From contig CAXIUT010000060.1 of the NCBI GenBank assembly GCA_964035545.1, positions 1 through 45,769 on the forward strand: 45,769 nt of DNA. The letters run 5' to 3'. The notes under the pieces are model-generated. The model ran no database searches and was not told the DNA's origin. It was given only the letters and a program-made list of their open reading frames with translations. How positions within the stretch are numbered: the first letter of the stretch is position 1; the number at the start of each line of letters is the position of its first letter. This document shows, one piece after another, positions 9,340-38,854 of the stretch. The stretch is from Bugula neritina. Its lineage: Eukaryota > Bryozoa > Gymnolaemata > Cheilostomatida > Bugulidae. The position numbers were made by a program, and so were the translations under genes.

Positions 9340-9413
9340 TAGTTCATTTTGTTATCATCTAATTTTGTAAATTATAGTTATTCAATATATTTAAAAAATA
9401 ATTAGTTAAAAAA

Positions 9414-10376
9414 ATGATCTAATAAGAATCAATACCTCCTTCATCATAGAGAAAAACAACCTAAAACCTAGATTAAAAAACAACAATAAAAAATGAATAA
9501 ATCGACTCTGAATCAATCCATCCATGTCGTTCTAAAAATTGCTGCTATCTTCTATCATCAATTCTTTTTATCTGTCTTTGCTTCTCCTTATACCTTCTTC
9601 TATTTTCCGATCCCTTTGACAATCTAAATTTATAAATAAAACCTAAACCCAAATAAGTAAGCAATAAATTCAAACATGATAACAAATGTTTTACTGAAGG
9701 ACTGTCTTTTATCAACAAAACACATATCATATAATCATGCGGATTACGAAATAAATCATATTTCAGAATAATGAAGTACAGCCATAACTAAAATAAACTA
9801 TAGTAAACTTATAGATCTAAAATAATAAATTAAAGTTTATTCCTTGAAGGAAATACGTACTTTCCAGCCAATAACTTGCTCTACTTTCTCACCTATAAAA
9901 AACAAATTGCTATCAGATACACCATAGGAGAGTAAATCATAGAAAAAGATAGAATTAAATGGTCAAAAAAATAAGGATGGGGAATGACTCATAATTATAC
10001 TCACCTAATAATCAGTACAGGAAGTTATAACCTCTATGTTACAGATGGCGACCTCAATATCCTCTAAACCATTGTTGTAAAGGATTAAAATGGTTATCCA
10101 AAAAGATCATTGAATGAGCTTGAGTATGTTGTAGAGGATAATAAACCTTTTATTTATGCGAACATTTTTGAGAAAGATATTATAGTCAAGATCGACTATA
10201 AGAGTGGAAATATCGTAAAAACTTTTAATATGACAAAATATGTGTAAAAATAATTAGGTTTGAAATTGAAAGGACAGAAAGTTTTGAATGGAATAGTCTA
10301 TGACAAAGACAATAAATAGTTTATGATTACTGGTAAACTATGGAATTCCATGTATAGAATAAAAAACTTTTAATGA
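9414..10376 (+). CDS. Glutaminyl-peptide cyclotransferase, membrane-anchored (beta-propeller type)
   Basis: A single 321-codon open frame (320 aa) from the ATG at 9414 to the TGA at 10374. Family landmarks of the plant/bacterial-type (beta-propeller) glutamine cyclotransferase appear in order: CFTEGLSF, the segment around YFLTYKK, GWGMTH, NELEYV...IYANI, VLNGIVYD and the terminal FMITGKLW. The family turns N-terminal Gln of peptides into pyroglutamate in the secretory pathway. Residues ~43-66 (CCYLLSSILFICLCFSLYLL) form a membrane segment after a short polar N-terminus, so I infer a type II Golgi/ER-anchored enzyme. No intron is needed. The open frame on the opposite strand at 9545-9730 is its shadow. 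Length matches the family plus the anchor. Confidence 0.9.
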
Positions 10377-10942: not shown

Positions 10943-13621
10943 TCATGATTTTTTGGGTCGATATTGCAAATTAGATGTAAATTTATTATTTTATTTTAAA
11001 CATTTCTTTATCTTACTTTGTTTTGGCACTGAAACAGAAACCTGCTTATCTTAGTCATTTTTCTAATCTTTAAATATATTAAGCGCAAGTTCCTTCAATA
11101 CCTTTTTCTTCTTCAAAGGAGTTTGAGGCGAAACTCTATTCTTCTTACAGTATTTTACAACTATCTCGTACAAAAATACACAAGATTCATAAAGCAAAGT
11201 TATGAAGTGATGAATAGATCCAAGCAAATAAACAATTAAACAAGCTATAGTTGTAAAAACAATCATCTCAGTAGAAGAACTCCAATAGAAAACCATGAAG
11301 CAAACATGAAAGAAAAAAGGATAAAGAGACAAAACAAAACTATTTAGTCTTTGTTTTTTCTTCTTGAAACCTATGTAAATACCCAAAGCTGTAAACAAAA
11401 AGATCACGATCATAAAATACAAAGGATTAGCCAGCAACACAAGGCAAGGATAGATAAAGTTAGCCTGACAAAGATACCACATCTATAGTATTTAAAAGGT
11501 AACTAGGTCACTAAAAGTTAATGGCTTTATTGGTACTTATTTTTACTTGTTTAAATCTTCTTCATAACATTCAACTTTCAGAAAATTGAATCTACTGTTT
11601 AATTCCTATTTTTTAATCTTTCTTAAATATGTATTTTTATTGTCTTCTACTTATTACTATTTGTTATCCCTTCTGGCCTTTTTCTCTTTCTTATTTTTCT
11701 TATTTTTTCCTAAAGAATTTTAGTTTTTTTATACTTTTCTTATCAGCTGATGTGGCATACTAAAGTTGAATACTCGTCTATTTTATAACCATTTTCTATG
11801 TTTTTCTCTTTATTATTTTTCTATCCTTCTTTTCATCAACAACATTTTTTATCTATCTGATAAAAGATCAAAGAAGTAGTATATTGGAAATACTAGAGCA
11901 ACGAAGTAGACAATTATGTAAGCCAACATGTTTAGTTTACTTCCTCCATTTCTTACTCCTCCCTGAAGCATCATAAAAGTCCAAGGCAGAGTGAAAGTAA
12001 TAAAGGTGTTTATCAAATAACCATAGAAGAAATTCCATTTTTCTTTAGATAAAAATCTTCTTAAAGGATTAGTTCGAAGACAATACGAACTTAGAAGTTG
12101 AATTCCTAGCATAGATAGAATATTAACTAGCAAAAAGATAAAAGAAACCAAGTTACTGGGTACAGTATCTGATGAAACTTAGAAAAAAAGAGGTTTTTTT
12201 CTATCAACTTTTTATTGACTTAGATCTCCAATATCTAGGTCAATTCCTAAATAAGCAAAGAAGTTGGCATTGATTTAATGATATACTGTTGATAAGTAGC
12301 GATAGATTGGTTCTGGAATAGGAAAATTCAAAAGGACATAAAGACTACACATAGTAAAATAGTTGAGAAACCCTAAAAAGTACATTGTTAAAGGCATAGT
12401 AGTGACAAAATTAGATATTATACTTGTCACATTACTAGTCACTTTCAAAGAACTGTTTAGAATTTCGATTGTTTTTGCTTAATTGTCACTTAAAACTAAA
12501 GAATTATAAAAAGAACTTTCTTCATCTTAAGTTTAGTTTGAAGCTGAACTTGAAGGAGGTGAGCTTGCTGGGGAACTTGAAGGAGGTGAGCTTGCGGGGG
12601 AACTTGCAGGTATAATTCTTGTAAAATTGACTTGAAATTAACTGAGATCATTATTACTACAAGTATAGAGATTATTATTTTGATCAGCCATTGCTATTGT
12701 TGCTGATATAGCTGGAGTACTATATTGATTTCCATTTGTTAAATCAACAAAGATAGTAGAAGTTAGTCCAAAGACAACCATGATAGAACTATTTGCATCT
12801 AAGAAGTAGGCTGATTGGATTGTATCGCTTATGTTTATACTATGAATGACTGAACTGTTTCCCAAATTGATGACTTGAACGGGATTATAGCTGTCTGTTT
12901 AAACTATTATCATCGAAGAATCTTTGCTAAATGTTACTATTCCTGTTGTGTTGGCTGGAGGAGTAGAAGAAGGAGTTTTTGTATGCTTCAAAGATATTGA
13001 AGGTTAAATTTGGTAGATTTTAATGGTTGAAAGTTATGTCCAACCAACTGCCCATTGAATATCAGGCGAATAGACCACATCAGTTAAGTTAATACCAAGA
13101 GGATATTTTCGAATACTCAAGCCTGATGTTGAGTTATTTCTTCTTAATTAAGATGTACCACCATAGTTTTTATAAAATTTGTAAATATTGGATCTCTAAA
13201 TAGTTACTCTACTAGCAATAGTTCCTTTATAAATAGTTGATTCATTATCAAAGGAATAGTTGGCCTTTAGGTTATATAAAATGAACGATCCTGTTGGGTG
13301 AGTAGCCTTTTATTAGAACAATATTTTAGTTCCTGCTATATCAGCTCCAAAATCTACTATTCCAGAAGAAAGGCTACTCACATTTTTAGTGTCAATAGAA
13401 GTAGATAGTGACCCTTTCAACCAACTTTCGTAGATATAGAGACTACTCAGATGATAGATAGATGTGTTACGGATGATAAGTTTTTTGCAAGTGTCAACAG
13501 AAGGACCATAATATGAAAGAGTAGTTGAAGAGGTAAGATTGACTTCAATTTTTGCATCTATAAAGGAATAGAGAGTGCAACGAGTCAAACTTACCAATAG
13601 AAATTGAACCAGGACTAACAT
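10943..13621 (-). CDS. Subtelomeric multi-pass membrane protein family, member C (intact)
   Basis: One uninterrupted frame of 893 codons (892 aa) from the ATG at 13621 to the TGA at 10943-10945. Signal peptide MLVLVQFLLVSLTRCTLYS; ectodomain with conserved DTCKKLIIRNTS and repeated beta-rich stretches (NPVQVINL, SIMVVFGLTSTIFVDLTN); a Ser/Pro linker (ASSPPSSSPASSPPSSS) just before the membrane region; four membrane helices (PLTMYFLGFLNYFTM, WNFFYGYLINTF, FPIYYFFDLLSDR); a basic Gln-rich loop of ~130 residues; then MWYLCQANF and further helices ending before a Lys-rich tail. It is a likely cell-surface or ciliary membrane protein of unknown function. It is the intact reference on the left arm against which the frame breaks of A and B are seen. 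Confidence 0.9.
12546..12605. repeat. 27-bp coding tandem repeat (Ser/Pro) in gene C
   Basis: Two near-perfect 27-bp units (GAACTTGAAGGAGGTGAGCT...) plus a partial third encode, on the minus strand, the Ser/Pro linker between ectodomain and first membrane helix. It is absent from paralogues A, B and D, so it is a recent expansion and G+C-rich for this sequence. Confidence 0.85.
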
Positions 13622-13775
13622 TTTTTTAAATTATACCTATAGAATTAATAGAATATTTTAAATTAGAATATAAAGAAAATTTATTTTTATCTTTCAAACT
13701 GTATTCATAGATTTTTGATTGATATCTATCCTATATTAATTATTTTTACAATAAATTCAGATTATATTAAATATA

Positions 13776-15773
13776 TCATGATTTAACTATCTTCACTAAT
13801 TTTGATTTATTCCATATTCCTTCAACTATTCCTTCTGCACTATAAAACCTACCCATCCCATCAACTTCATCTCCTCTAAATTAACCCTAAAAAATCTACC
13901 CGCTATATAATTTAACCTTTCCCCGCCCCTACATCTGATCATCAACCAAATCGCCTTCATACCACTCGCAATACTTAAAAAATTAATCAAAATTCTTATA
14001 GTCAAAATTCTCATTCAATACAACCAAATCGTCATTGTAAACTTTACCCCTACCATTAAACATGTCATCCACCCACTCACCTTCATACGCCAACTTATTA
14101 CTAGAATAAAACAACCTCCCAAATCCATTCATTTTGTTGTCCCTCCACTCACCCTAGTAGTATCCTCCGTCATTATAATACAGCTTGCCTTGTCCGTTTC
14201 GCATTCCTTTTGATTTGTAGCCTTCGTAACGACCTTCTGTATCGTAGTTTTAGATCACAAATTCACTGTTTTTGTTCTAGATTTTTCTTATTGTCTAGGG
14301 CTGCTGTCCATTAACTTCTTATATTGATGAGTTTTGTTTTATATTTACAGGTTTAGAACTTGATGCTCTGCTTTTTTATTGTAAATGGTTATTTTTTTGA
14401 GGTTATATTGACTTTATATCTCCTTTATTCACTATTTTCTACATAGTTATCATAGAATTGTTTCTCATTACATTGAATTCTTCTCTTTTGCTCATTTGTA
14501 TATTCAAAGGCTTTTCTCTATACTATATTTTAACATTTTGCTTTACAGGTCTCTCTTAATATCCATTATTATTCATTCTGGGAGTTCCTTTCGGGATATG
14601 AGTTGATTCTATTCCATTTTTCAAATGATTTCCCTGATAAATATTCTTTTATCTTTATTATTTCTCCTGACTATATCTCTTTATTTACTTTCCCATTCCA
14701 TAAGACTCACCAATTGCTATGGGATTCTTACTTCTATCTTGACTTTCTGATCGATTAAAAGTAATATTAGGTCTATTTGATTTCTGCATCGAAATAGGAT
14801 TCATTGATGAAGTTCTAACTTAGGTCAATATTTGAGATTGAAGTATTCTTGGAGATTACAAAGGAGGAAATCTATTATTATTATTTTGTAGTTAGCTATT
14901 TGGTTATATGAAATTACTTTGTTACAATACTGGTTCTAGAAAATGTTTTTATCTATTTTATATTCCCCAAATCCGATAAATTTATTTTCTTTTATGAGGC
15001 TACCTACTAAATAAAATCTATATTCCTTTTCTCAACTTTTAATCTCTTATTTCTTTCACTCTTTGCCCCAGTTATCCCCAAAATATTTATTTCTTTCTAT
15101 AAACTCTATCAGCAAACTACAATCTCTTCAACTAAAGACTAATTACTCCCACACTCCATAAATTTGATAAATATTAATCATAATACTACGTTTCTGTTGA
15201 TAATAAAGAATGCAATTTCTATGGAGATGGGTAGCTTTGGATTATTTTTTGAAAGTTATCGATGTTCTAACCCTACTCGTTCAAAGACAACAATGGATCC
15301 TTCAAGTATATCCTCTTTGTTGACAAATCTAAAGCTAAATTTTCAACAGTCACTGAAATAAAATTCCTCTCAAATCTATTTTTGTACTCCTTCAGACCAC
15401 TCAAATAGCACTATATTATATTCCTGATCTCTTCTTCGCGAAATGGTCTTCCAAAGAACCTGCGTTTGACTATTTACTCTCTGAGGGAGTAATTGTTTTC
15501 TCCTTCAAAGATAAAATAGTGTAATTTTTACTGAGAACAGTAGCTGTTTCCCTCTGTCTTGTAGTAGCCTTTCAGTTTAGAGATAGACTAGCACTTAGAA
15601 CGTTTGTACTCGGACTCAATGCCATCAATGTGATCAGAGTTTTGGGAAGAGTTAGTGGTCATTTTGTGAAGAGTGCATAACTAGTTGGAACGACGATGCA
15701 GTACGAACGATTTGGAGTAGAGTTGGTACTAGGAGTGAAGAGTCTAAGAAGTTTATGGAGAAGACAAACCCAT
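13776..15773 (-). CDS. Pseudokinase with five C-terminal MORN repeats
   Basis: 666 codons (665 aa), intron-free, from the ATG at 15773; a second in-frame ATG at 15662 is possible. Residues ~60-215 align with a minimal protein kinase fold: LHYFIFEGENNYSLREQI (hinge region), GRPFREEEIRNIIQCYLSGL (alpha E-like), RNFISVTVENLALD in place of the HRD...N catalytic loop, KDP in place of DFG, and SNLWSVGVI matching the D-W-S-x-G motif. The glycine loop, VAIK Lys, HRD and DFG Asp are absent, so catalysis is unlikely. A low-complexity Ser/Asn/Gln linker follows. The last ~140 residues hold five MORN units (YEGYKSKGMRNGQGKLYY, YQGEWRDNKMNGFGRLFY, YEGEWVDDMFNGRGKVYN and two more), which in other proteins bind membranes or scaffold. 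The 5' end is duplicated at 18395-18740. Confidence 0.85.
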
Positions 15774-15786
15774 CAATTGTTATTAT
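15441..15786. repeat. 346-bp direct repeat, copy 1 (pseudokinase 5' end)
   Basis: It covers the first ~110 codons and 13 bp upstream of the pseudokinase-MORN gene. It matches 18395-18740 in the same orientation with three substitutions in 346 bp and no gaps; both edges are sharp. Confidence 0.97.
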
Positions 15787-15942
15787 TTATTTATATTAAA
15801 TACCATGCTATTATTTGATTAAGTATTTTTCAATTAAGTAAAATGATAAAAGTAAAGTATTTGATCATTGAAATGAGTTAATACTTTTGATAAGATTAAA
15901 TAAGATAAATTAATAGTTTAAAATTTACATTTAATCTGAAGA

Positions 15943-16521
15943 TCATTTTGAATGTTTTCCCCCTAAGAACATATCTTGGTAATAGATGATAAGAGCACGG
16001 CTATCACAAGGAATTGATTTTTCAATTAAAAACTGTTAAACTGTTTTATCTTTTATTTATTTATATAATACTTTTTTACCACAGATAATAATTCCAGTAT
16101 TTTACTTTACTTGACCTAAAAAGGATAAAAAATGAGGAGATTGAGAAAGAATATTTTCAAATTTTTAATTTTTAGAAACTTTAGCAACAGGATAAGATTT
16201 TCCTCCTTTAAAACTTACAATAGAAAAGTCAAAAACTTTATCAGCAGCAATTGTAGAACTAGTGGCTTTATAGTATTGAATAAGAGTAGTAAAAGGTCGA
16301 ATCTTCACTTGTCTAATACAATCACACTTACCACAATGAGCTGGATTAAGACAGTCTTCGCACAGAATATGTCCACAAGATAATAGCACAATCTTTTTCT
16401 TCTATTTCAATATAGATTCCTTACACATAGAACAAAATTGATAGTGAACTTCTTACTGCTAGAAATACTTCTTGTCTATGCCTTCACTAACCATCTTTTG
16501 GAAAAGAGCATCTTGACTCAT
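15943..16521 (-). CDS. RING-finger protein (putative E3), cassette 1
   Basis: 192 aa from the ATG at 16521 to the TGA at 15943. A C3HC4 RING lies at residues 30-66: C30-x2-C33, C49, H51, C54, C57 (SCGHILCEDCLNP), C63-x2-C66 (HCGKC). This family recruits E2 enzymes for ubiquitin transfer. The C-terminal ~60 residues (GIIICGKKVLYKQIKD then TVQQFLIEKSIPCDS and LIIYYQD) are conserved with cassette 2; spacing and hydrophobic pattern loosely resemble a ubiquitin-like/RAWUL fold, which is inference. It is divergent from USP1 across 171 bp. An open frame on the other strand at 16132-16383 is a shadow. Confidence 0.88.
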
Positions 16522-16692
16522 CTAATACTTTTATTTTATTAAAATATCAATTCTTCTTATTGATTTATTCCAGAAATACTTTTTTATTAAGATAATTTTT
16601 CCAATAAAAAATACTTTTTTTTTCACTTTTTTTATGATAAATTCTTACTCCTATAATTTATTATTAATATTTAATTTGGCATACTTTTTACA
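16522..16692. promoter_or_regulatory. Divergent promoter RING1 / USP1 with ATACTTTTT elements
   Basis: 171 bp between two start codons, almost pure A/T. The element ATACTTTT or longer occurs at 16525, 16575, 16610 and ends about 6 nt before the USP1 ATG. The same element recurs in the second cassette and, inverted (AAAAAAGTATAAT), before both E2 starts. Confidence 0.55.
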
Positions 16693-17517
16693 ATGGGAAT
16701 AATTTGTTATCAAAAAGAATAGCTGCAAATAATTCTGGATTAATAAAGAAAGCAAAATCTACAATTAGAAGGTTTGCCTAATGTTGGAAGAACATGTTAC
16801 CTAAACTCCGCTCTTCAACTCATATATTCAATGACAGTATTGAAATAAAAGATCAGAAATAAAAATGAAAAAACAAAAGAAAAGAACCAAAATATCACCC
16901 ATTTATTGATTGGAAATGTTTTCAAGTGTATTGATTAAGGAATGGCTTAATAAAAGAAACAATATCTCAACAAGTTAGCTCGTCACCTTCAAGAACTATT
17001 TAAAATAAAAATAAAAGAGAAGAATGATCTCTTAGATATCCTTATGAAGATTTTAAATCAACTAATTTCTTAAGACTAAACTATTAAATCTTACTTTACT
17101 CTTAAGTTTCAGCAACAATGCAAATGCCATACCTGGAATTTTGAATAAATGCTTATTACAACTCCTCAAATATGCTAAAAATGTTCATAGGAAATAAAAA
17201 TAATTGTAAAGGATTCAACTCCATATCTATTAGTTGATTCTAACCTGTCTGAAACCAAATAATTTCTAAAAAAAGATAAGTCAAAAGTACAATACAGACT
17301 CATATCCTACTCAACTTTTTCAAAAGAATATAACGGACACTATATCAGCTACAGAACGATAGATATTAATGAAGAGAAGAAGGTTAAGAAAACTTGGATA
17401 AAAATTAATGATAGCAATGTCACAATGATGCCTTATCATAGAAAAGATGATGATTCCCCTAAAATAGCAGTCTATCAAAGAGTTAGTATAGAAGATTAGA
17501 TGTTGAAGACCTTATGA
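16693..17517 (+). CDS. Compact ubiquitin-specific protease (USP), cassette 1
   Basis: 274 aa from the ATG at 16693 to the TGA at 17515; no intron. The Cys box GLPNVGRTCYLNSALQLIY has catalytic Cys at residue 35. The His box YNGHYISYRTI (His ~216) is followed by WIKINDSNV, which supplies the Asp/Asn. Two Cys pairs (CKC ... CQKC) sit where USPs carry a zinc ribbon. All catalytic residues are present, so it is probably an active deubiquitinase. At 274 residues it is a minimal USP core. It lies 62 bp upstream of the E2 in the same direction. Confidence 0.93.
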
Positions 17518-17579
17518 CGATGATAGATATTTATAAGAAATTATCATATTATTTTATTTGACAAAAAAGTATAATATTT

Positions 17580-18170
17580 ATGGGAAATAAACAGTTGTCA
17601 TAACCAATATCAGATCCAAAAATGTAGGAATTCCTAAGGCAAATATTTTATTCAGGAGGATAGAAGACGAATCAATCTGTTTCTGATAACTCCTGCACTT
17701 TAGCTGCCAGAAGAGTTGCAAATGAGCTTAAAGAAATAAGCTAAAATCCTCCTATGAATTGGAAGGTTATCACCAATGGATAAAAATGGAACCGATGGGA
17801 TGTCTGGATCACAGCTGATGTAATTTACTTTTTAAGATAGTATTTTAGTCCTTTTCATGATATTCCATTCAAAGTTAATGTTGAATTTCCTTCCAATTAT
17901 CCTCATTAACCAGCTGAGATCAGAATAGACAAGCCTCATCTATTTTTTCACCCAAATATATCATCTTTTGGTAAAATTTGTGAAAAAACAGTCAATAGTT
18001 CTAGTCCCTCTATAAGAATAAGAGAAAAGCTTAATGCAGCTGTTGATGTTCTTTTGATTCCAAACCCTAATAGCGTATATAATGAAGATGCTGCATAACT
18101 ATATAAATAAGACCAAACTTCATATACCAGAAAAGCTGCCAGAATCTTTAGAGGAGTTTTGAAAAAATGA
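17580..18170 (+). CDS. Ubiquitin-conjugating (E2-like) enzyme, cassette 1, 21-nt intron
   Basis: ATG 17580, TGA 18168. With a 21-nt intron at 17820-17840 the product is 189 aa. After a ~45-residue Ser/Gln-rich N-terminus comes a UBC fold: ANELKEISQNPPMNW, VNVEFPSNYPHQPAEIRI, the HPN motif (LFFHPNISSFGKIC) with the catalytic Cys at ~127, LLIPNPNSVYNEDAAQLY and the C-terminal helix. The residues after the Cys (EKTVNSSSPSIRI) depart from the usual LDIL..W core, so the partner may not be canonical ubiquitin. The intron is in frame here, but its homologue in cassette 2 breaks the frame, which proves the position. Confidence 0.9.
17820..17840 (+). other. 21-nt intron in E2 of cassette 1
   Basis: It starts GTAATTT and ends AGATAG, and is followed by TATTTTA as in cassette 2. 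Length is a multiple of three, so an unspliced read would add seven residues not found in E2 folds. Confidence 0.7.
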
Positions 18171-18394
18171 TTGTGACACATTTAATAGATTAAAAAACGT
18201 TATTCCTAACACCAATATATATTTATCAATTTTCATTGTTTTTAATACTGTTTCTAAAAATAAATCAATAAATATTAGTAAATATCAAATTATTTGAAAA
18301 AGTATTTTAACTATCTTTCTTATAGAACCTTTTAAAAACAAATATTTTTTATTCTATTTGTATGATACAGGACTAAAACTAGTTTATCTTTATT

Positions 18395-18740
18395 AAATGG
18401 TCTTCCAAAGAACCTGCGTTTGACTATTTACTATCTGAGGGAGTAATTGTTTTCTCCTTCGAAGATAAAATAGTGTAATTTTTACTGAGAACAGTAGCTG
18501 TTTCCCTCTGTCTTGTAGTAGCCTTTCAGTTTAGAGATAGACTAGCACTTAGAACGTTTGTACTCGGACTCAATGCCATCAATGTGATCAGAGTTTTGGG
18601 AAGAGTTAGTGGTCATTTTGTGAAGAGTGCATAACTAGTTGGAACGACGATGCAGTACGAACGATTTGGAGTAGAGTTGGTACTAGGAGTGAAGAGTCTA
18701 AGAAGTTTATGGAGAAGACGAACCCATCAATTGTTATTAT
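18395..18740 (-). pseudogene. Truncated copy of pseudokinase 5' end (346-bp repeat copy 2)
   Basis: Same orientation and 99% identical to 15441-15786. It holds the start codon (18727), 111 codons and 13 bp of upstream sequence of the pseudokinase-MORN gene, and ends at the GRPF codons where homology stops abruptly. Beyond that the frame runs into unrelated AT-rich sequence. It sits between E2 of cassette 1 and RING of cassette 2, at the position expected if the tandem duplication unit began inside the pseudokinase gene. The 18171-18394 spacer contains no gene. Confidence 0.93.
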
Positions 18741-18835
18741 CTTATATCAATCACTTATTATCGATTTTCATTTTACTCATTAAATATTAAAATAAAGTTA
18801 AAGCATTTTGAATATTGAAATAATGGTGATGATAA

Positions 18836-19444
18836 TCATGAAGTCTATTTTGGGCCTCTATCTCTTTCATAGTAATAAATAGTTAAGAACTTATCAGAAT
18901 TAGTAGGGGAAGATATTAAATTTCTGATAATAAATTACTCAAGGGACATATTTTTGATATCACTATAATATTTATTTTTTCCAAAGATAATAATGCATGG
19001 TTAACCTTTAGTTTACTCCAAGAAGTTCATAAACTCAATAGATTTTTTTAGAATATTTTCAAAAACTTCATCTTTTGATACATTTGGAACAATTTTTGAT
19101 CTCCTAGCTTTTATATCCCATCTAGTAATAGAAACTTCGTAAAACTACTGTTCAGAAGCCCTAAAATATTCCAGAAGAGAAATAAAAGGATCCTTTTTAA
19201 TAGTACTTTTAGAACAAGAATTTAGAATTAAACCTATTCCACTACCAAATCCAGGACAACTAAACTTTCTTTAAATACATCTTTTACATAATATATGTCC
19301 ACATGTAAGAAGCACAGGTATAGTATCAGAATTATTAATTGATCCCTTACATATAGGACAAAATTAATAGAGTTCAACTGATTTAAAAGATTTTTCATCT
19401 AAACCTTCATCAATCATCTTTTGGAGAAGACTATCTTTACCCAT
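18836..19444 (-). CDS. RING-finger protein (putative E3), cassette 2
   Basis: 202 aa from the ATG at 19444 to the TGA at 18836. The N-terminus (LLQKMIDEGLDEKSF) mirrors cassette 1 (LFQKMVSEGIDKKYF). RING ligands: C29-x2-C32 (FCPICKGS), C48, H50, C53, C56 (TCGHILCKRC), C63, and the last Cys displaced to about residue 77 by a Gly-rich insertion, so the second zinc site is altered. The C-terminal module (CIIIFGKNKYYSDIKN, SLEQFIIRNL, FLTIYYYERDRG) matches cassette 1. Divergence from RING1 is deep, in contrast to the almost identical repeat next door. Confidence 0.87.
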
Positions 19445-19604
19445 CAATACCTTCAACAAACTAATTATTATTACTATTTCTTGTTAATTTAACCAATTTA
19501 AAATACTTTTTTTTGACTTTAATTAATACTTTTTTTTTAACAAAATTATTATCACTATTTCTTATACATTTTTAATATAAGATTTATTATACTTTTTACT
19601 ATCA
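19445..19604. promoter_or_regulatory. Divergent promoter RING2 / USP2 with ATACTTTTT elements
   Basis: 160 bp between divergent start codons, nearly pure A/T. Three copies of ATACTTTTT (about 19503, 19529 and 19589) keep the number and spacing seen in the first cassette although the surrounding sequence has diverged. Confidence 0.55.
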
Positions 19605-20447
19605 ATGTCAAGCTGTTGCTAATTTATCTACAAATGTCTGTTTTCTAGTTCTGAAAATGAAAACTAATCAAAAAATGAGAAACTAAACTTGACTAAAGAT
19701 TCTGGATTACCAAATATTGGAAATACATGCCACTTGAATTCTACCTTACAGCTCATCTACTCAATGAAGACCCTCAGATAAAAAATTCTCAATGAATTTA
19801 ACTATCAACTTACAACACATCAACTTATTAAAAATGTTTTTCAATATATGGACTTGGAAACACAAAATAAAAACAAAAATAACTCTATTAAAGAGAGTCA
19901 TCTTATTGTCTTGGAGAAACACTTATCAAAGTCATCAGGAGTTAATCTTAAATAGGCAAATGATTTGATTGATATTCTGTTGATGATTTTGGATAAACTA
20001 ATTTCTGAAGATAAAAAAGTCAGAAGCTACTTTAGATTGAAGTATAAAAAGAACTGTGATTGTGGTCTCTCCTGGAATTTTGATTAAATAGTTATAAGCA
20101 TTCCTGAATAATGCTAAAAATGTTAGAAAAAAATGGATCTAATAGTGGATGATTCTTCCCCTTATCTCCTAGTTTTTTCAAGCTCATAAGAAAAGTAAAA
20201 AAGAATCTATTTAAAAGATTAAAAAAACAAAAAAATTCTATTTTAAAACTTAAGTTTTGCCTGCTTTCAGGGAGATAAAAGATTTGGCCACTATATCAGC
20301 TACCGAATTGTTGATGGTTAATGGAAAAGGATAAGTGATAGCCAGGTTACAACTATCGATAAATACTAAGATATTCAAGATGAACCTAAAATTTTGATTT
20401 ACTAAAAGAAAGAATATTCTGTTAATCTGCCGAACAAAATGAAGTGA
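19605..20447 (+). CDS. Compact ubiquitin-specific protease (USP), cassette 2
   Basis: 280 aa from the ATG at 19605 to the TGA at 20445. Cys box SGLPNIGNTCHLNSTLQLIY (catalytic Cys ~42), His box RFGHYISYRIV (His ~229) and WKRISDSQV complete the triad. The zinc-ribbon pairs CDC and CQKC are retained. Layout matches the cassette 1 USP, but overall similarity is moderate, so the duplication is old or the copies evolve fast. It is 59 bp upstream of E2-2. Confidence 0.93.
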
Positions 20448-20506
20448 TGATCAAAATTCTATAAGAAATTCTTATATTATTTTTATTATAAAAAAAGTAT
20501 AATTTT

Positions 20507-21069
20507 ATGGGACCAAGCTTAGCTCAACAACTTACATAACATACCCAGTCTGCTCAGTCTACTCAGTTAACATCAACGTCGACTGTCTCCTCTTCTTTTG
20601 CAATAAAGAGGATATCAAACTAATTGAAAGAGATAAGAGATAATCCTCCAGTGAATTGGGAAGTTAGAACTAACAGCTAGAAATGGAATGAATGGACAGT
20701 TTGGGTTGCAGCATAAGTAAATTATTAATAAAATAGTATTTTACTCCTTTTTATGGAAAACCTATCAAAATAAACATTACTTTTCCTCAAAATTATCCTT
20801 TTTCTAAACCTATCATGAAAATAGATAAGCCTCATCTATTTTTTCATCCGAATATCTCAAGTTCAGGAGATATTTGTTAAAGATCGGCAATAAATAACGA
20901 CAATCCTTCTGTTACTATTCGCTAAAAAATAGGTGGAGTAGTAGAAATACTAATGTTTCCTAATCCTAAAAGTTCATTTAATTTGGAAGCAACAAAACTT
21001 ATTGAGAGGGATCCAAGATAATATAACCGAAAAGCTTATTAAATCTTTAATGAATTGAAGAAAAAATGA
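20507..21069 (+). CDS. Ubiquitin-conjugating (E2-like) enzyme, cassette 2, 20-nt intron
   Basis: ATG 20507, TGA 21067. The reading frame is continuous only if 20 nt (20717-20736) are removed, giving 180 aa. N-terminus rich in Thr/Ser/Gln; then KRISNQLKEIRDNPPVNW, YFTPFYGKPIKINITFPQNY, the HPN motif (LFFHPNISSSGDIC, catalytic Cys ~116), ILMFPNPKSSFNLEA and the final helix. As in cassette 1 the residues after the Cys are non-canonical. The 5' leader AAAAAAGTATAAT ... ATGGG is nearly identical to that of E2-1. Confidence 0.9.
20717..20736 (+). other. 20-nt intron in E2 of cassette 2
   Basis: It starts GTAAAT and ends AAATAG. Not a multiple of three: unspliced, the frame stops before the catalytic Cys. 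It occupies the same position as the 21-nt intron in E2-1. Confidence 0.88.
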
Positions 21070-21431: not shown

Positions 21432-22406
21432 TCATCTTTTCCTAGTTTCTAACTTTTATACTTTAGCTCTTTTACATTTATTAATTGCTTACTTTTTTAT
21501 ACAATAGTAATCTTGACTTTTTGGCCAACCTAAATTAAAAAAAACATACGAAGCATTATCATATTTTGAATATTGACTAAACTATCTCACTAGACTATCA
21601 TTTAAAATATACTTCTTTTAGTTTTCCACTCTTAGACAAGTATAATGACCATAATAACCAGTTCCATAGTACATGATAGAACTAACAAAACGATATTTAC
21701 TTTTCTGAACTTCTATAAAATCATCAATTTATTTCTATTCATTATTTGCAAACTGTATCATATATTATGGAAGTTTAAGATACTTTTTCTTGATTTTTTA
21801 TCCACATGATTCACATTATTGAGACGAACCAACATCATATAAAGATTCACTAATAAAACCATTGATAATACAGGGACACTTTAAACTTATCTACATATTG
21901 AATAGGTCCTTTATTGAATTTTCTGGTGACAAGTTCATTTCAATGTTGTCAATAAGATTTATCAAAATAGAAGAAGCATCATCAGGACTATATCTTTCAT
22001 AATAAGAGTTTATGCTTCTAAGATTTTTAACCATATGATCAAGGTAATACCTTTTTTAAGTATTTTTCTAATTTCTCTATTTGAGAAGATGAAAGATTTA
22101 ACCAAGTGTGTAGATAAAAGAACATTATTTACCATTGCTTTATCTCATTGTTTGAGCTTGTTTGATAATCCTCTATCTGAACTATTCTGCTCCATAAAGA
22201 AATTGAATAACACTGTTTAAGAAGCATGTATTACCTATATTAGGTAATCCTTAAGGAATTTTCTCTTAAAACTTATGTTATTTCTCTTAAAACTTATTTT
22301 ATTTTTCTTCTTCAGAAATCTTTGTATTAAAGCTATGGCAATAATATAAACGACCTAAAAAATAATAAGCTTTCGTAGAATACTTAGGACTTGGACTATC
22401 TTCCAT
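21432..22406 (-). CDS. Ubiquitin-specific protease (USP), third copy
   Basis: 324 aa, one frame from the ATG at 22406 to the TGA at 21432. Catalytic Cys ~61 in QGLPNIGNTCFLNSVIQFLY; His ~253 in GYYGHYTCLRV; NDSLV follows; zinc pair CESC (and CPC upstream). All triad positions are filled. The N-terminus contains a tandem KFQEKQH/KFQEK duplication. It faces the second cassette tail-to-tail and has no adjacent E2 or RING, so it may be an offshoot of the cassette USP. An AAGTATT element lies about 8 nt before the ATG, resembling the cassette promoters. Confidence 0.92.
22261..22302. repeat. 21-bp tandem repeat in USP3 coding region
   Basis: Two units of TTCTCTTAAAACTTAT.TTAT encode KFQEKQH and KFQEK on the minus strand. 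Confidence 0.8.
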
Positions 22407-23535: not shown

Positions 23536-23593
23536 GGGGTTGGGGTTGGGGGTTGGGGTTGGGGTTGGGGTTGGGGTTGGGGTTGGGGTTGGG
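23536..23593 (+). repeat. Interstitial telomere-type tract 1 (G4T2)
   Basis: Nine or more TTGGGG units on the plus strand with one GGGGG interruption, ending abruptly in TTGGGATCTC. Orientation is that of a right-hand telomere. The plus-strand frame of the following RNF213-like gene runs into it as a Gly-Trp dipeptide repeat with no ATG, and the frame is closed by TGA at 23524. The minus-strand Gln-Pro open frame across it is a by-product of the repeat. Confidence 0.95.
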
Positions 23594-29500: not shown

Positions 29501-32500
29501 GATACTAATGTGGTTTATACATATCTTAATAAAACAAAATCATTTAAGATTGAAACAAATAAAAATTTCTAAAGAATGTTCTCAGAACAAGCTGAAAATT
29601 ATAATAGGATTTTAGTCAAGAGTCTTTCAAAGACAGGAATTACTCGATCGATTAAAGCTGTCTAGGAAAGACATATTAGTTGAAGCAGGAGCATTAGCTA
29701 AAGGTAAAGAACTTTAATCATTTTCCAATAGGAGGAAATATTAACTTTAAAAGCTTAGGAAAAAGATTAAAATCATTAAATTTCATTGGAAAAGAGATAA
29801 TATTGCTGAAGATAGGTTCAGTTGTTAATAAAGATCATTTAGAGTTATTTTTGGCTTCACTTATATTATTTAGATGTTTCTTTTCTGAAGAATATATCTA
29901 TCTACATCTCTAAACTTAGATTGTCATTGAACTTGAAAACATATATCAAGAAAATCACGTCGTACAGTAAAAAAGGAATTAAGAAATCAATTTAATCAGT
30001 TAAATAAACTAATAATATCATATTCTTCATATTTTGAAGAAAAATAAACTTTAATTTATCATCGAAGGATTTGATCATAATCATATTAAACTATGAACAA
30101 ATGGATTAATAAGAAGAGTTTGTTTTTCTGTACTTAAATCTTTTCGATAAAAAAACTATCAATCTTACTAATATTCTATTCAAAGATATTAGAACCTATT
30201 AGTTTTATCTCGGAATAAAGAAAAAAACAGTTGATTTTAAAATATTATGCTGATTCTGTAAGAAGGAAACATATTGAACCTACTTTATTAACAATATAAA
30301 AACTTAATGAAAGTATTATTCAATATATTTGATACTTTTTCCAAAAAATTCATGTCTTTTACCAGAATTACTTCAAGAATAAAATCATTGGAATAATCTT
30401 AAAGAAGTAAACACTTCAGCAGTATCGATATCATTTTATTTAAATTTGTATTTAAAATACAATGAAACTACTAGAATAGATATATACTGAGAACAAATTT
30501 ATGAAGAAAATGTTTGAGAAAAGATCTTTTAGATAAATGGCATAAGATTATTCCATGCTTATTATGCCAGATTTTCTAAACTAAAGTTATCAATTTGTTT
30601 ATTTTAAAGATCAAGATGTACCTTTTCTTATCAAGTTCTATAATGTCATTCAAAACTTTGAAACTAATAAACAACTATATAGAGGAGCTGCTGCTTAAGC
30701 ATTTTAAACCATTTTTTCCAAAAATTGTTCTTATAATTCTTCAATTTTAGATAAGAAAGCTTTAGATAAAAAAATGCTTGATATTCTAAGAGCTACCACT
30801 GGAGATGATCGGATAGTCAGGATTGAATAAGAAGTTTAAAATAACAACTCTCAACTCTTTGATAACTATGTTTTAACTAAAGATAATTTCTTTAAGATGT
30901 GTCTAATCATTCAAAGATAAAGATCAGGAGTTCCATGTGTAATTTAAGGAGAATCAGGAGTTGGAAAAACAGCTCTTATCAGATTTTTAGTCTAATATAT
31001 CTACAAAACAAGACTATTAACCTTCAACATCACAGCTGGAACTCATTAAAAGGACCTTAAAAATATGGTTGAACAAATTTAAAATGAAGCTGAACTTTTA
31101 AGTCATCATAAATCTAAAAAAGTGTGGGTTTTCTTTGATTAATTCAACACTACTGAAGAATTAACATACATAAAAGAAAATGTTAGTTGAGCATAGATTC
31201 ATGGGCAAAAAGTTACCAAAAAACCTATACTTTGTTGCTGCATGTAATCCTTATAGAACTCATATAGCTAGGCATCGGGTCCATTAAAAAGGGATCCAAA
31301 TAAAATAGCTTTTCGTGTGAATCCTCCTCCTTTGTCAATGATTCAACTCATGTGGGATTATCAACAACTTACTGATGTAAGAAAATACAGTCTATATATA
31401 AAAAAATTCTTTAGAATTTAAAGTATCCTAGATAAAAAAGTTAGTGAAAGCAATGGTATAAGTCCATAAGCAAATAAAGTAGTTTGTATAAATCAGTGCT
31501 GTTAGTCTAAGAGATGTTTAGCGATTCAAAAAATTGTATGTATGGTTTACAGAATACTTAATCAATATAAATTAGATTATCTTATAAAAGAACAGAACTC
31601 GACAAAAATAAATGAAATAAAGTAGAAATAGTGATCTCGAAAGAGCTGATAGAGCAGCTATTCTTGCTCTTCTATTCTGTTATTGCCTCAGATTTTCTGA
31701 CTTGGGTGTGAGAGAAAAATACATAAACATTATTGAAAAAAAAATTAGATTTTTAATATAATTTTATGAAGAAAGTTATTGATGAAGAACAAAAATTGTT
31801 TATAAAAGGTTTGAAAATGCCAGCTGATGATATTGCCATTAATATGCTCTGAAGTAAACGTTTTTGTTTCCTTTGTATGTGTCATGAATAAAATTCCTGT
31901 CTTAATGATAGGTAGTCAGGTAGTTCTAAATCATTATCAGTCAGAATTCTTATTTCTAATTTGAATGGAAATAGTTCTTAAGCTTAAATATGTAAAAAAA
32001 TACCCTTAAATTAATATGATATATTTCCAAGGTTCTTAATCATCAACTTCTGAAGAGAATTTAGTAAGTCTTTAACAAGGTAAACTTGATGGACATTTCT
32101 AATAAATATAATTGTCAAAATTGTATCTATTTTGACGAGATAGGACTGGCATAAAAATCAGTACATAATCCTTTAAAAGTTCTTCATAGTAAGCTATAAA
32201 TCCATAATTAAAAAAAGGTGGCTTTTATCGGTATTAGTAATGACTAACTTGATGCAGCAAAAATGTCAAGATTTCTGTAATAAATAGACCTCCTCCATCA
32301 ATTGATTAATTGAGAACAACTGCTAGATAAATTTATTTGAAATAAAAAGAGATATTGAAGTTGAATAAAATATAAAAATAAAAATAAATAGAACATATGG
32401 AGATTTATATTTAATTTTATACGTATTTGGTAAAGTAAGCATGCAGGCAAAAAAGGATTTTTCGGACTCAGAGATTTTTTATAACTATGTCAAGTATGTA

Positions 32501-35500
32501 TGTAAGAAAATAAAAAAATACTCAGGATACTTTCCTTTCTAAGAAGAACTAAATAAAGCTATTTCTATTAATTTTGATGGTCAAGAATAAAGTCTTTCAA
32601 CTTTTAGATCAGAAAAAGCATTATTATTCAAAGAAAGAGGTAGAAACTAAATGATACAACCTCAATCTATCAAAGAAATAGTTTAATAAAATTTATCTGA
32701 GAATAATTCAAGATGTTTACTATTGATAATTAAAGGATAAACTCTTGTTCCTAATATTATAGAAAGCATCGCTGCCAATCGAAAGTCTGTTTCTATCATC
32801 TATGGAAGTGCCTTTTCTAATGATGCAAAAAATTAAGAATATAACTTAGAAGTAACCAACAAAGTTATTACTATGATGTCGAAAGGATAAATAGTTGCTT
32901 TTAAAGACATCAATAACTCTATCCAGAGTTCTCTTTATGATCTATTTAATAAATCCTATATAGCTATAGGCACTAAAAAGTATTGTAGAATCGCTGTAGG
33001 AGCCAATTCTAATCCTCAGTGCTTAGTTGGTTCTAACTTCAATGCTATTGTCTTTATGTAAGAATCTAAAGTTTCTTTATTAGATCTTCCTTTCTTAAAT
33101 AGATTTGAAAAACACTTTTTCAAGTCATAAACCATCTTGGATAAATACTAATTGAATCTTAAATCTTCAATTTTAACATGGTTGTAAAAAATACTTCCAA
33201 TAAATGAGAAAAACTTTCTGAAAAGATAAAATTTTATTTTTAATAGTTCTTAATAATCAATTATAACTCTTCTTCTTAAATACAGAAACTTATAATAGCA
33301 CTAAAAATAGAGATTAATTAAAAGAAACCTTCTTCAAAATGCCACATTTGATTTTATTGTCTTACATAAATACATTTCTTAATAAAGTAGATAAATATTC
33401 CAATAATAATTTCAAAATATAGGATATGAATCGCCTGCTACAGATCTTAGTGATCTTATTATTTACACCTACGATCAATTCGCTCACCTAGATGATTATA
33501 ATACAAGTGAACTACTGAAAGATGCCTTCAAAATTAAAATATCTTAGATACAATCATAAAAGCAGTTGAAGTAAAAGTTGGAAAAAGGATTTAAATTCAG
33601 ATAATATTCTAAATGTGCTATAATACTAAACTATTCTCAACATTATCATCTCATAGAACAAATTTTATTTTTATCGAAAAGAATTAAAAAATAAAGATAA
33701 TCTGATGGACAAATCATTATTGTAATTCAATTCCATAGATTTACCTTGATGAGAAAACCCGAACTAAATCTCACCATCAGTTATCTTCATCCTTTTAAAC
33801 AGTATTTCTTGTAAAATCTTGATGTTTAAATAAGTTAGTATCTTAGAAATTCTTCATTCTATTTTAATCTTTTCAAACTCTTTAAAATGGATTAAAAAAT
33901 ATAATCTTTGTACTCTGAAGCTATTTCTTTAATGAAAATCTTACCGAATGAATAAAATCTTGAAGAAAAGAATCTATTTGAAGTTGTAAGTTATCTTATA
34001 ACAAAAAATAAGATGAGAAATCAATTATTTGCTTTTCTTTAACAAATATTAAAGAACTAAAGAATAGATTATGAGGTTTTACATTCTTAAAGACTTAGAT
34101 TTTAAGATTATTCAACAACTTTGGAAGCTTTACAAGCCTTTACTTCATAAATAATTGTTAAATATATATTTATTTTTGTTGAATTAGTTGTTAGTGGAAA
34201 TCATTTGAAATTATTTGAACAATAAAGAATGTAAATGTAAGAAGAAGATCTTGAACAAAATATTCAAATGTCTCAGTTTAATTCTGATCTTGAACAACTA
34301 AAAATGTACATATTATCAAATTAAAAGAAAATAATTGATAAAATAAAGTATTAGAAGGAATCAAATGACATAGTTATCAGAAAAAATAACTATAAAATAA
34401 AAGGGATTTAAAATTTTATTGATAATCTTGAAATAACTTTCAGAAATAGAAGAAATATTTAACTTTCTTGTGGAGTTTAATCAGATTTAATGTCCTCAAA
34501 TGCATAATATATATGCTTTACTCATAGTTTTGATGCATAGTTGAAGAAAAACTCAATTATTAGAAATTACTATCAGAAAAAAGAATATCGAAATACCATT
34601 ATTAAAGATATAGTGACTTATTTACATCATTAAAAAGACCCGATTATTATTGAATTTATTGAAAAATTGATAGAGTAAAAAATAAAAACATCAGATTAAC
34701 TACCCAAAATATATTTCCTTTTATGCAAGAACAACGTCTTTGACATAGCAATTCATGTCCTTTAAAATATCTTAAAATATCACACTAATCTTAATAAATT
34801 ATTAGATGATTTCGAAAACTTATCTTTCTAGAGCAATATAAATTTGAACAATATTTGTAATAACTTCTTGACAGTTGTTATGGATAAAGCTATTAAGCTA
34901 TCCTTCGTTACTTTTGAAAATATTAAAGATTTCAATGGCCCCTAACACTTCTATTCCTACATCAAAGATCTTGATAGTACTATCTACTTGTTCAGCAATT
35001 AAATATTTTAAATATCTCCTATTTCACCTGAGTATTTCTTACTTAAAAATTTTTATTAACTTTTTGAGACAGGAAAACATGAAGAAAAATAACAAGGAAT
35101 TTATGACTTTTTAAACTTCTAAAATTAACAATCGTTATATTAAAGAATATATAATTTTACCTTACAGTTGAGAAAAAATGATGATAAAAATAAAGAAATA
35201 TATGAAAGTTTCTTAAGTTTAAAATTTTTTGAATGTTGGATCATGCATTAACTCAAATCTGGCTCTTAAACTAGTGTTAAATAATGTATAGCTCAATTTG
35301 TTGAATGGTGTAACTCAAGCATTCACTTCGCTAATCGATCTTATAACTTTTTCTGTTAATTTTTCAGTTAACTTTAAACTATGGACAACTTTTAAGATAT
35401 TCTGAAATATTTAAAAGGATAAAATAAAACTCAAATTATCAATAGATATTTAGTTGAAAAAAGTTCTTTTAGTTTGGCTGTTAATAATTTTTTCATTAAA

Positions 35501-38500
35501 AAAATTAATGAGATAATTAATGATGGATAAACTGATAGATAAGTTAAAATTATTGAAGAATATTTTGATATTTTTGAGATATTTACTTCAAGTGCAATAA
35601 ATCCTGAGACTACAGGTGGAAGTTTTAAAATAGCTTTCGTCAAGGTATATTTATCATCTTATCTGCAGTATCTAACTAAAGGTCTTCACTCAGATACAAT
35701 GAAGAGAATTGATGTTTGTCTTAATCAATAAGGAATGTTTAAAGAACATGCAAGACTTTATCTACTTAAATTGATTAAAAATACTCAAACTCAAGAAGAA
35801 ATCTAAACTAACTTCTTCAAGTGCAATCGATGTGAATGGATTAAAAAAGATTAATAAATAATATTGGACAAAAAAAGATCTTTTAAAGTAGTTAAGTTCT
35901 AATAACCTCAGTAGTTATTCAATGAAATAAAGGCATTTGACAATAGTTCTCGAAGTGGTCTTAAAGAATATGAAAATTTAGTCAAATCAGGATTAAAGAA
36001 TAATCACTCAACATATGAACTACTTACTTATTTTTTAACTCAAATTTACTTTGAACTTGAAGAAAATAAAAGATAAAATCTACTGAAACTTCTTGAAAAG
36101 AATAATCAACTCAAAAAAGTTGAAAATCAACCAATAAGATCTCTATTAGAACTATACTCAAAAGGTTTTCTCAAAAATAATAAGATCAAGTAAAGACAAG
36201 ATTCTTATAGTTTAAAATCAGCATACCTTTACAACTACCTTAATATAATTATTTCATGTAGAGATAAATAGTGTCCTTTAACTTAGATGTTTTTTTCACA
36301 AGGAAAAATACATAAATCTTTAACAAACTACTTAAAAGATAAATTTATCATTGGTAACAATCAAAATCCAGGTATTACAAGACTTTAATTTATCATGAAT
36401 CGCTAAAAATAGAATCATAAAGCTTAGATGTACTTAAAATGTTCAAAGGATTGTGATTTTTATATTCCAGTTGGTGGTAATTTCTATGGTTTCTACGATG
36501 GTTGTGATATTTACAAAAAACTTAAAAAATGCCCTTTCTGCAGCAAATAAATCAATCCTCATAAACTAAAATAAAATATGAAAAACTATATCACAATATC
36601 TGGAGATCAGATTGAAGACTAAATTATATCACTATCTTAGAAAAATATCTCATACTTCAACACTCACAAACTTGAACTAACTGGTTTGTCTAAGTTAGAA
36701 GGAAAAAGAGATCTAGAATAAAAACTTGAAAGAAAAAGATAAATGATTTAAACTCTTAGTTAAGGATTCATTAAAAATAAGTCAATTGTTTCATCATTTT
36801 TACTATAAATCATCGTCTATTTTGTTTATTCTTTCTGTCTTTAAAATTCTTTGATCAGCTCATAGTAATCATAAAAAGCTTTTGGATTTTCTAGTAGTAA
36901 AGCAGTGAATAAATTTTTAGATTTCACTTCATTGCTTGAAGAATAAATAATTCGTATTGAAGGTTTAAACCATGATGAACTATGTTTTTGGAATATTGGT
37001 GTGGGAAAGCATCTATTTGATTTAATATAATCATATTCTAAAGATGCAGCTAAGAGAGACTATCGAGGACTTACTAGTTCAACATAAAGAGATAATTTTG
37101 AACACTTATTCTAACAGTCAATATTCAAGATAGCTAACAATTCGATCTAATGCAAGAAATAGATAATATAAACAAGAAAAGTAGTAGATTTGAATATAAT
37201 ATAAGTCCTTGAAGAAAGTAGTTGTTCTTATTACTGGTAAACTAAATACAGATATCTTCATTTATTCAAAAATATGCAAACAATAGGTAAAATTAATAGA
37301 GATAATCAATAATAGTTCAGTTATTAGTATATGATGAGATATTATGATAATTATATCAGAAATCAACATCCTCTCCTTCACTATATAACTACTATCATTC
37401 AACCAGAATAAACCTATCAAACAAACTACTTTTTATAAAGCCTTAAAACTATTCTAATCTTCCTTTCTAAAATAAAAAAGATGACAAATCTAAAAATAAG
37501 AAGGCATTAGAAGAAAATATCAATAAAAAGCTTTATCAATGAAACAATTATAAATTCTTCTGAAAGATAAAAAACACATTAATAGCTAAAAAACTTTGTT
37601 AAAACCTGGAAAACTTTTATGACTAAAAGTAGAGATATTTTAGATCATTCAGATTATCCATTCATTGTTGATGTTTTAGAGATAAGCTAAACAGATTCAC
37701 TTAATAAATTTATTTTAGTTGAAAAAGATAAAGAATTCAATAACAAAGAGGGATAATATATGACTAATTGTACATAATGTCTAGCTAAAATATATAATCA
37801 AATATGTTTGACTTTAAAAACTATTGTTACCAGAATTAATCCTAACTCTGTGATAGCTACAAATAATTATGATCCTATTGATCCTACTGATCTTAGAGAA
37901 AATAGCAGATTGCTTGAACTTCCATAAATAAATTTAATTAAAGGGATTATTCATAAATATTCTAACTATTCTGTTTAAATGGGCATATCGAACTTTGAAT
38001 TATTTTTCATATAGATATAGAAAACTCTCATTAGCAAATTAAAACCAGTACCTTTGATGAAAGAAAAGAAAAGTTAGTTTAGTTATGCTAAATTTATTGG
38101 AGATAGTAGTCATTTCTTGATATAAATGAAAAAAAATACATAAAATAAAACTCTAAAAGAAATTAATAAGCTAGAAGCAGTAGAAGATTATTTCAAGGGA
38201 TAAAAATTAAGAAAAAACTAAGTCTATCACAAATTTTTGAAAAACTTTCAAAAAAGTTTAGAAATCATCATGGTTTATTACAAAAATATCAAAGTAGAAA
38301 TTGTCCCTAAGAATATTGAAGAATTATTTGAATACTATCACATTCCTCATATCATAACATAACTGAAGTAAGAACCCTTTAAAAAATTACCTCCAACTAT
38401 AATAGTTGATCTCTATGAGTACATTGAATCATTTAACTTTGAAAATATAGATTAAATGCTTTCTGATAACTACAAACAAAGAATGAATCTATAACAGGAG

Positions 38501-38854
38501 AAAAAACTTCACTAAGTCATCGAAATCATGAAGGAAAATAGAGATATTGAAGGTTATCCATCATACAATAGCTTCAAAAAGGCTTTATATCGTTTTGTAT
38601 TTAGAAAAGTTTTGACAGAATCAGGAAGTCTGGAAGAAACTCTCAGGTAGAACCTTTGCTCATTTTCATACTTTTGGGACAAAGAAGCATAGTTTTTGAT
38701 AGAAAAATTCGATAGAAAGTATGGAGAAGTCTTCAAAATAGAAATAAAGCATCTGTATTATGTCTTGCAGAAGATTAAGTGGATTGAAAAAAAATCTGAG
38801 GTCAACCCAAGAGGGTCTGGTTCAAATAAAAAACCCAATAAAAAGTGTTATTGA
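23596..38854 (+). CDS. Giant RNF213/mysterin-like AAA+ E3 ubiquitin ligase (5' end unclear)
   Basis: About 15.3 kb of coding DNA broken by small introns (for example 24282-24300, 19 nt) ends at the TGA at 38852. Human RNF213 is 5207 aa, so the size fits. Landmarks: KKGWQTIKPWWHLIQ (24301); AAA3 P-loop GESGVGKTALIRF (30948) with Walker B WVFFDQFNTT (31122) and CNPYR; AAA4 P-loop GSSKSL (~31911) with FDEIGLAQKS (32131) and GISNDQLDAAKMSR; then SIIYGSAFSNDA ... LLDLPFLNRFEKHFF (32770-33120), as in the metazoan protein. Near 36440-36541 Cys pairs (KCSKDC ... KKCPFC) resemble the RZ-type zinc module used for transfer. Walker B of AAA3 is DQ, not DE. The first in-frame Met after the telomere tract is near 23733. 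1-nt breaks occur in AAA4. Exons were not all resolved. Confidence 0.85.
24282..24300 (+). other. 19-nt intron in the RNF213-like gene
   Basis: It starts GTTCTC and ends TTCTAG. It joins IENIQFF to KKGWQTIKPWW, a conserved region. Confidence 0.65.

Follow-up and report, generated by a model that had tools for sequence, protein, structure and literature searches.

Analysis of a 45,769-base contig (CAXIUT010000060.1) from the Bugula neritina assembly GCA_964035545.1 revealed two neighbouring copies of a ubiquitin gene cassette, arranged head to tail on one ciliate chromosome. Each copy consists of a gene for a putative RING ligase on the minus strand, followed by genes for a USP-type putative deubiquitinase and a ubiquitin-conjugating enzyme (E2) on the plus strand. 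Each cassette may be a co-regulated module of E2, ligase (E3) and deubiquitinating enzyme (DUB) that acts on the ordinary ubiquitin of the cell, with a ubiquitin-like domain (Ubl) of the RING protein docking the USP or the E2; we give this reading an even chance. The gene identities, introns, motif enrichment, dN/dS values below 1 and junction repeat reported here were read from the sequence. The window analysed is the whole contig, designated C61 in a 215.8 Mb assembly of 295 contigs (other C-numbers denote contigs of the same assembly), and it is capped by C4A2 telomere repeats, at 1-77 on the left and at 45693-45769 on the right.

Gene order, orientation and coordinates of both cassettes, as described in a first-pass annotation of the window, were borne out on recheck, and the lengths of the divergent promoter regions (171 and 160 bp) and of the USP-E2 gaps (62 and 59 bp) agreed exactly. 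The compact unit of writer, ligase and eraser that it had proposed is present, with Pfam support for RING, UCH and UQ_con in both copies, and the step between the units is 2912-2927 bp. The strong protein divergence between cassettes was evident as well, with identities of 41% (RING), 43% (USP) and 49% (E2, after splicing). Rfam gave no match. The cassette features, in window coordinates, are:

15943..16521, minus strand: RING1, 192 aa; C3HC4 RING and predicted C-terminal Ubl; tail LGG-KHSK; Pfam zf-RING_5 1.7e-6
15943..16245, minus strand: predicted Ubl module of RING1
16522..16692, no strand: divergent promoter region 1, 171 bp; ATACTTTTT at 16576, 16611 and 16681
16693..17517, plus strand: USP1, 274 aa; Pfam UCH 7.4e-14; Cys and His boxes
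17518..17579, no strand: USP1-E2_1 spacer, 62 bp; reversed ATACTTTTT at 17564
17580..18170, plus strand: E2_1, 189 aa spliced; UQ_con 6.3e-24, 84.6 bits
17820..17840, plus strand: E2_1 mini-intron, 21 nt, GTA..TAG, frame-neutral
18836..19444, minus strand: RING2, 202 aa; RING and C-terminal module as in RING1; tail RGPKETS; zf-RING_5 2.3e-7
19445..19604, no strand: divergent promoter region 2, 160 bp; ATACTTTTT at 19503, 19526 and 19589
19605..20447, plus strand: USP2, 280 aa; Pfam UCH 1.1e-15
20448..20506, no strand: USP2-E2_2 spacer, 59 bp; reversed ATACTTTTT at 20492
20507..21069, plus strand: E2_2, 180 aa spliced; UQ_con 3.1e-22, 79.1 bits, profile positions 1-137 of 140
20717..20736, plus strand: E2_2 mini-intron, 20 nt, GTA..TAG

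E2-USP adjacency is unusual in this genome. Among the small contigs, 18 E2 loci on 16 contigs and 23 USP loci on 19 contigs were counted; these numbers are lower bounds with gene pieces merged by eye, and not every small contig counted need be ciliate. Both kinds of locus occur on C33, C44 and C61, and the two window E2s are the only ones of the 18 within 1 kb of a USP, the distances on C33 and C44 being about 8 and 14 kb. C61 holds three USPs, the most of any small contig listed.

Enzymes of the two cassettes

All eight zinc ligands are found at C3HC4 spacing in RING1, and RING2 has seven at canonical spacing and a displaced eighth (CPGF, with the next Cys 14 residues on); both proteins are putative RING E3 ligases. 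The extra C-terminal module common to both RINGs, noticed in the first-pass annotation, was borne out; prediction assigns it a ubiquitin-like β-grasp fold. Structure prediction of the RING1 module gave this fold (pLDDT 83.6, pTM 0.77), and Foldseek matched the model to solved Ubl folds, with the rows tied among Ubls and the bacterial Ubl structures 8tyz and 8tyx among the matches. The fold was modelled for RING1, and the RING2 module is linked to Ubl by its likeness to that of RING1. No sequence-profile kinship of the module to ubiquitin was found, and Pfam gave no match to it at E ≤ 10, RAWUL included (with filters that remove most matches above 0.1). The tail of RING1 (LGG-KHSK) holds a di-glycine and that of RING2 (RGPKETS) has no GG. 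A search of the whole assembly for RING-Ubl relatives returned only RING1 and RING2 (next match E 0.3), and the RING alignment gave 207 pattern matches in viral contigs with no confirmed relative. A model of full-length RING1, made with TAA and TAG read as Gln, was discarded, as its pLDDT was 40 and its Foldseek rows were meaningless.

The Cys box, the His box, the Asp/Asn and the CxC/CxxC zinc-cysteine pairs are kept in USP1 and USP2, and by domain and catalytic boxes both are putative deubiquitinases of the USP type. The closest match of USP2 is a chain annotated as ubiquitin carboxyl-terminal hydrolase 8 (presumably yeast Ubp8), by a margin of about 2 bits; USP1 is closest to USPs other than this chain.

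Spliced E2_1 and E2_2 scored 84.6 and 79.1 bits against UQ_con, for which the family cut-off is 27. Alignment with three other ciliate E2s agreed with the first-pass annotation in that HPN and the catalytic Cys are kept in both and that unusual residues follow this Cys, namely EKT or ERS, where two of the three other E2s have LDI. The loop following EKT/ERS has no Trp. The SPA-type loop of E2s contacts the RING, and a similar loop is kept as SPS in E2_1 and NPS in E2_2. A profile of the two spliced E2s matched ubiquitin E2s (UBE2D, UBE2A/B) in the PDB; 143 sequences passed E 1e-10, and the best 60 of these 143 included no SUMO- or NEDD8-E2 name. Unspliced E2_1 was closest to UBE2A/B, and the spliced profile has no preference for UBE2A/B over UBE2D. 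Overall, the cassette E2s look ubiquitin-type by sequence. Nothing was found for E2_1 in viral contigs.

Analysis of the E2 genes also revealed very short introns. E2_2 shifts frame near 20725, and its reading in one frame needs the removal of the 20-nt segment 20717-20736. A pseudogene or frameshift was ruled out for E2_2, as removing this GTA..TAG segment restores the full UBC domain. The 21-nt segment of E2_1 sits at the same place, and splicing it out, although frame-neutral, lifts the UQ_con score from 73.8 to 84.6 bits (+10.8). Judged by these two lines of evidence the 20- and 21-nt segments are introns, and because the frame is restored and the Pfam score gained, both cassette E2s look intact. 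In four other E2 genes of ciliate contigs, candidates of the GT..AG type, 17-20 nt long, occur at the point where the match to the profile is interrupted or stops: one each in the genes of C20 (two copies, alike where compared) and C156, three of 15, 20 and 20 nt in that of C106, of which one lies at the interruption, and one in that of C44, 3' of the end of the profile match. The two E2 stretches of C20 (41701-42032 and 48102-48433) lie about 6.4 kb apart, have identical translated hits and junctions, and each contains a 17-nt candidate. Introns of 15-25 bp occur in Stentor and Paramecium, according to PMC10553269. In the length spectrum of GTA..TAG segments over the whole window, no intron peak stood out clearly between 17 and 21 nt (z at most 2.7 there; the largest value, 4.3, was at 13 nt).

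Shared 9-mer, divergence and the MORN junction

Each divergent promoter region contains three copies of the 9-mer ATACTTTTT, and a further copy in reverse orientation precedes each E2 (7 and 6 bases 5' of E2_1 and E2_2), giving four sites per cassette. The four cassette spacers thus contain eight copies in 452 bp, out of 18 in the whole window, and only 10 were found in 134,047 bp taken from parts of five other small ciliate contigs. The 9-mer was chosen by eye, and 1000 dinucleotide shuffles of the spacers served as control; none of them contained any G/C-containing 9-mer at eight or more copies, the highest number being 4. As the cassettes are related, the sites count as four per cassette and not as eight independent ones. 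The USP-E2 spacers are 82% identical between cassettes over 68 columns, above the 66.7-70.7% of longer old matches, which fits constraint on the spacer. From this pattern the genes of each cassette are probably co-regulated through the shared 9-mer.

Synonymous divergence (dS) between the cassettes, estimated by the NG86 method with TAA and TAG as Glu, was 1.2 for RING, 2.4 for USP and 1.5 for E2. The ratios of nonsynonymous to synonymous divergence (dN/dS) were 0.48, 0.20 and 0.29, respectively, with dS near saturation. A repeat at the junction, overlooked in the first-pass annotation, has diverged far less:

13776..15806, minus strand: MORN-repeat gene adjoining cassette 1; ATG at 15773 or 15806; Pfam MORN 8.6e-15
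15441..15790, no strand: junction repeat copy 1, 5' part of the MORN gene
18395..18744, no strand: junction repeat copy 2, truncated MORN 5' piece between the cassettes

The two copies of this 350-bp repeat are 98.9% identical over 351 columns and have sharp edges; from ATG 15773/18727 on, 330 of 333 nt are identical (dS 0.028). A 320-base query from the repeat found only these two places in the assembly. A MORN piece as old as the cassette divergence would not stay 98.9% identical, which points to recent joining or to gene conversion. The sequence is consistent with either of two histories: a recent recombination within the MORN gene that brought already diverged cassettes together, or homogenisation of the piece by conversion. 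The cassettes appear to be old relatives that were probably joined recently by recombination in this neighbouring gene. Because its old copies meet at a nearly identical junction, the locus is a candidate for diversity at the level of haplotypes. The truncated MORN copy (18233-18727, minus strand) has an open frame with one amino-acid change in 111 codons and a new C-terminal end, and it may be expressed.

Readings of the cassette and comparable systems

If each cassette is a co-regulated E2-E3-DUB module, the RING protein would be the ligase, with its RING receiving ubiquitin from the ubiquitin-type E2 encoded next to it. The C-terminal Ubl of this protein would be a built-in ubiquitin mimic, most likely docking the adjacent USP or the E2 backside; such docking would keep ligation and reversal together and shield the ligase from auto-ubiquitination. 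The 9-mer common to the RING/USP promoter and the USP-E2 spacer would switch writer, ligase and eraser together. Besides the mode of cassette joining, it is the pairing within cassettes, the docking through the Ubl, the co-expression and the substrates that we infer here.

The first-pass annotation took the order kept through divergence as a sign of co-selection. This argument is weakened, because a duplicated block repeats its gene order in any case, and it is weakened further by the 98.9% identical junction piece, which indicates a young junction or conversion. Ciliate macronuclear chromosomes are compact. This compactness and the ease of block duplication suit an arrangement in which three ordinary ubiquitin genes became adjacent by chance and the block was duplicated with no functional module. 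We regard such passive neighbourhood as unlikely, given that the spacer 9-mer stands far above background, that the USP-E2 spacer is kept better than the longer old matches, that none of the other loci found in this genome shows E2-USP adjacency, and that dN/dS is below 1 in all three gene pairs. The same ratios, together with the joint retention of both copies, speak against a selfish ligase-antidote pair, in which RING and E2 would harm, the USP would rescue and the deep divergence would reflect turnover. Writer and eraser do have a common promoter region and high protein divergence does stand next to a near-identical junction piece, and still we consider this account very improbable.

The tail of RING1 would fit a modifier precursor, in which the USP cuts after LGG and the E2 conjugates the RING-bearing Ubl, the system lacking only an E1. 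This is improbable in our judgement: the RING2 tail has no GG, the RING stands ahead of the Ubl, and the E2 profile points to ubiquitin E2s, which speaks against the RING Ubl as E2 cargo. Furthermore, neither an E1-like nor a free-modifier open reading frame (ORF) was found among those ORFs of the window, a part of the total, that were scanned with Pfam. The proposal of a self-contained conjugation module, made in the first-pass annotation, is for these last two reasons not supported. Less probable again is a one-protein ligase and modifier, trimmed by the USP to LGG in RING1 and attached by the E2 as a RING-bearing Ubl, whose cassettes would be long-separated haplotypes or paralogues (dS 1.2-2.4) recently joined at the MORN junction (0.03), as under diversifying or balancing selection, for example in self-recognition or immunity.

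An N-terminal RING with a C-terminal ubiquitin-like fold is a key feature of PRC1 RING-RAWUL proteins, as given in PMC2447854, and the RINGs could be divergent members of this type, the cassette then being a unit of histone ubiquitination and deubiquitination. The proximity of unspliced E2_1 to UBE2A/B and of USP2 to hydrolase 8 would agree with this. A UAF1-USP12 complex chain, presumably the RAWUL-bearing UAF1/WDR48, also appears among the Foldseek rows of the RING1 module (rank 32). We likewise judge this improbable, as Pfam found no RAWUL match within the limits given above, the preference for UBE2A/B over UBE2D is lost in the profile of the spliced E2s, and the USP2 margin is small while USP1 is nearest to other USPs. 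Unlike the genes of PRC1 proteins, the RING genes are linked to USP and E2 genes.

Linked genes for writer, ligase and eraser also occur in bacterial operons; to our knowledge such linked ubiquitin gene sets are rare in eukaryotes. A full-text literature search found no paper on a linked ciliate or eukaryotic E2-USP-RING set, which does not prove absence from print. Bacterial Ubl-E1-E2-DUB systems resemble the cassette in being compact conjugation and deconjugation gene sets with a similar Ubl fold (8tyz, 8tyx), but they are prokaryotic, include an E1 and have no RING-USP-E2 set. UBE2D/UBE2A-class E2s have the same UBC fold, HPN and catalytic Cys, whereas the cassette E2s have EKT/ERS in place of LDI after the Cys and no Trp in the following loop. 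Of known arrangements, the ubiquitin operon of the archaeon Caldiarchaeum subterraneum comes nearest; it comprises ubiquitin, E1, E2, a small RING and an adjacent Rpn11, as described in PMC5654768. In that operon, as in the cassette, genes for E2, RING and a deubiquitinating protease lie side by side with one on the opposite strand, and a ubiquitin-fold component is included. It differs in having an E1 and a free pro-ubiquitin, in using a JAMM metalloprotease where the ciliate cassette has a cysteine USP, and in encoding ubiquitin and RING as separate proteins where the cassette has RING and Ubl in one. If the reading as a co-regulated module is true, linked modules with their own promoter element can arise in eukaryotes, the cassette would offer a compact system for E2-E3-DUB coupling, and a RING with a Ubl beside a dedicated USP would be a ligase that itself carries the docking site of its eraser.

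Genetic code, probable host and neighbouring genes

TGA is the only stop codon in the window, and TAA and TAG are sense codons, which probably encode Glu; a Gln reading (table 6) was replaced, as conserved ubiquitin and USP positions and alignments of paralogues fit Glu better. TAA occurs at E64 of a ubiquitin gene on C207, and TAA/TAG at T14, E16 and E24 of another on C58, a 417-kb contig that is perhaps from another organism; a USP on C74 has a reassigned codon at x of QDSQ-x-F. In conserved stretches of window paralogues the residues facing TAA were E 26, S 16, I 10, D 10, Q 10 and K 7, and those facing TAG were E 5, K 3, P 3, G 3 and Q 2, counted apart from TAA/TAG themselves and rarer residues. 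Pfam totals shifted slightly in favour of Glu over Gln, with three of nine best-family scores (USP1, RING2 and the C-terminal part of E2_2) lowered by Glu. Both TAA and TAG encode Glu in peritrichs, according to PMC10553269, and with this known code the Glu reading makes the window organism probably a peritrich ciliate. A peritrich-genome paper (PMC12411067) makes no mention of introns, telomeres, genetic code, ubiquitin or GC content.

The assembly is mixed, with very large contigs (at least eight beyond 8 Mb), on which many protein matches have no internal stop, and many small telomere-capped contigs with reassigned stops. These features suggest that it represents an animal or a similar host and includes ciliate contigs.

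Two further genes lie beyond cassette 2:

21432..22406, minus strand: USP3, a third, more distant USP adjoining cassette 2; Pfam UCH 2.4e-22; 25% identity to USP1
32306..38854, plus strand: RNF213-like giant ORF, 2182 aa; best E 1.3e-19 to RNF213 (phmmer against PDB); outside the repeated unit

The RNF213-like ORF begins 11 kb past cassette 2, beyond an internal telomere tract (23540-23593), so that some chromosome copies may lack a physical link between it and the cassettes. An AAA piece (AAA_7 8.6e-7) and this ORF lie within 24000-38854, and the region is perhaps a single giant RNF213-like gene interrupted by introns or indels. Tracing the RNF213-like region by codon usage yielded 25 introns that varied widely in length, along with 3 shifts; this path proves nothing and was set aside. 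Among the papers listed by a literature search for RNF213 with ciliates, all appear unrelated, judged by title and start of abstract. Internal GGGGTT tracts occur at 23540-23593 and 41996-42061 and also on C33, C195 and C207, and probably on C10, C11 and C14. In the contigs examined they are always oriented as a right-hand telomere; they may be alternative ends of chromosomes that the assembler fused.

Towards both ends of the window lie four large ORFs of 782-1036 aa that are paralogous and have membrane-like segments in common (736-3267, 3451-5799, 10943-13693 and 42522-45632); the one scanned with Pfam, 42522-45632, had no match at E ≤ 0.01. A glutamine cyclotransferase gene is located at 9279-10376 on the plus strand (Pfam 2.5e-50).

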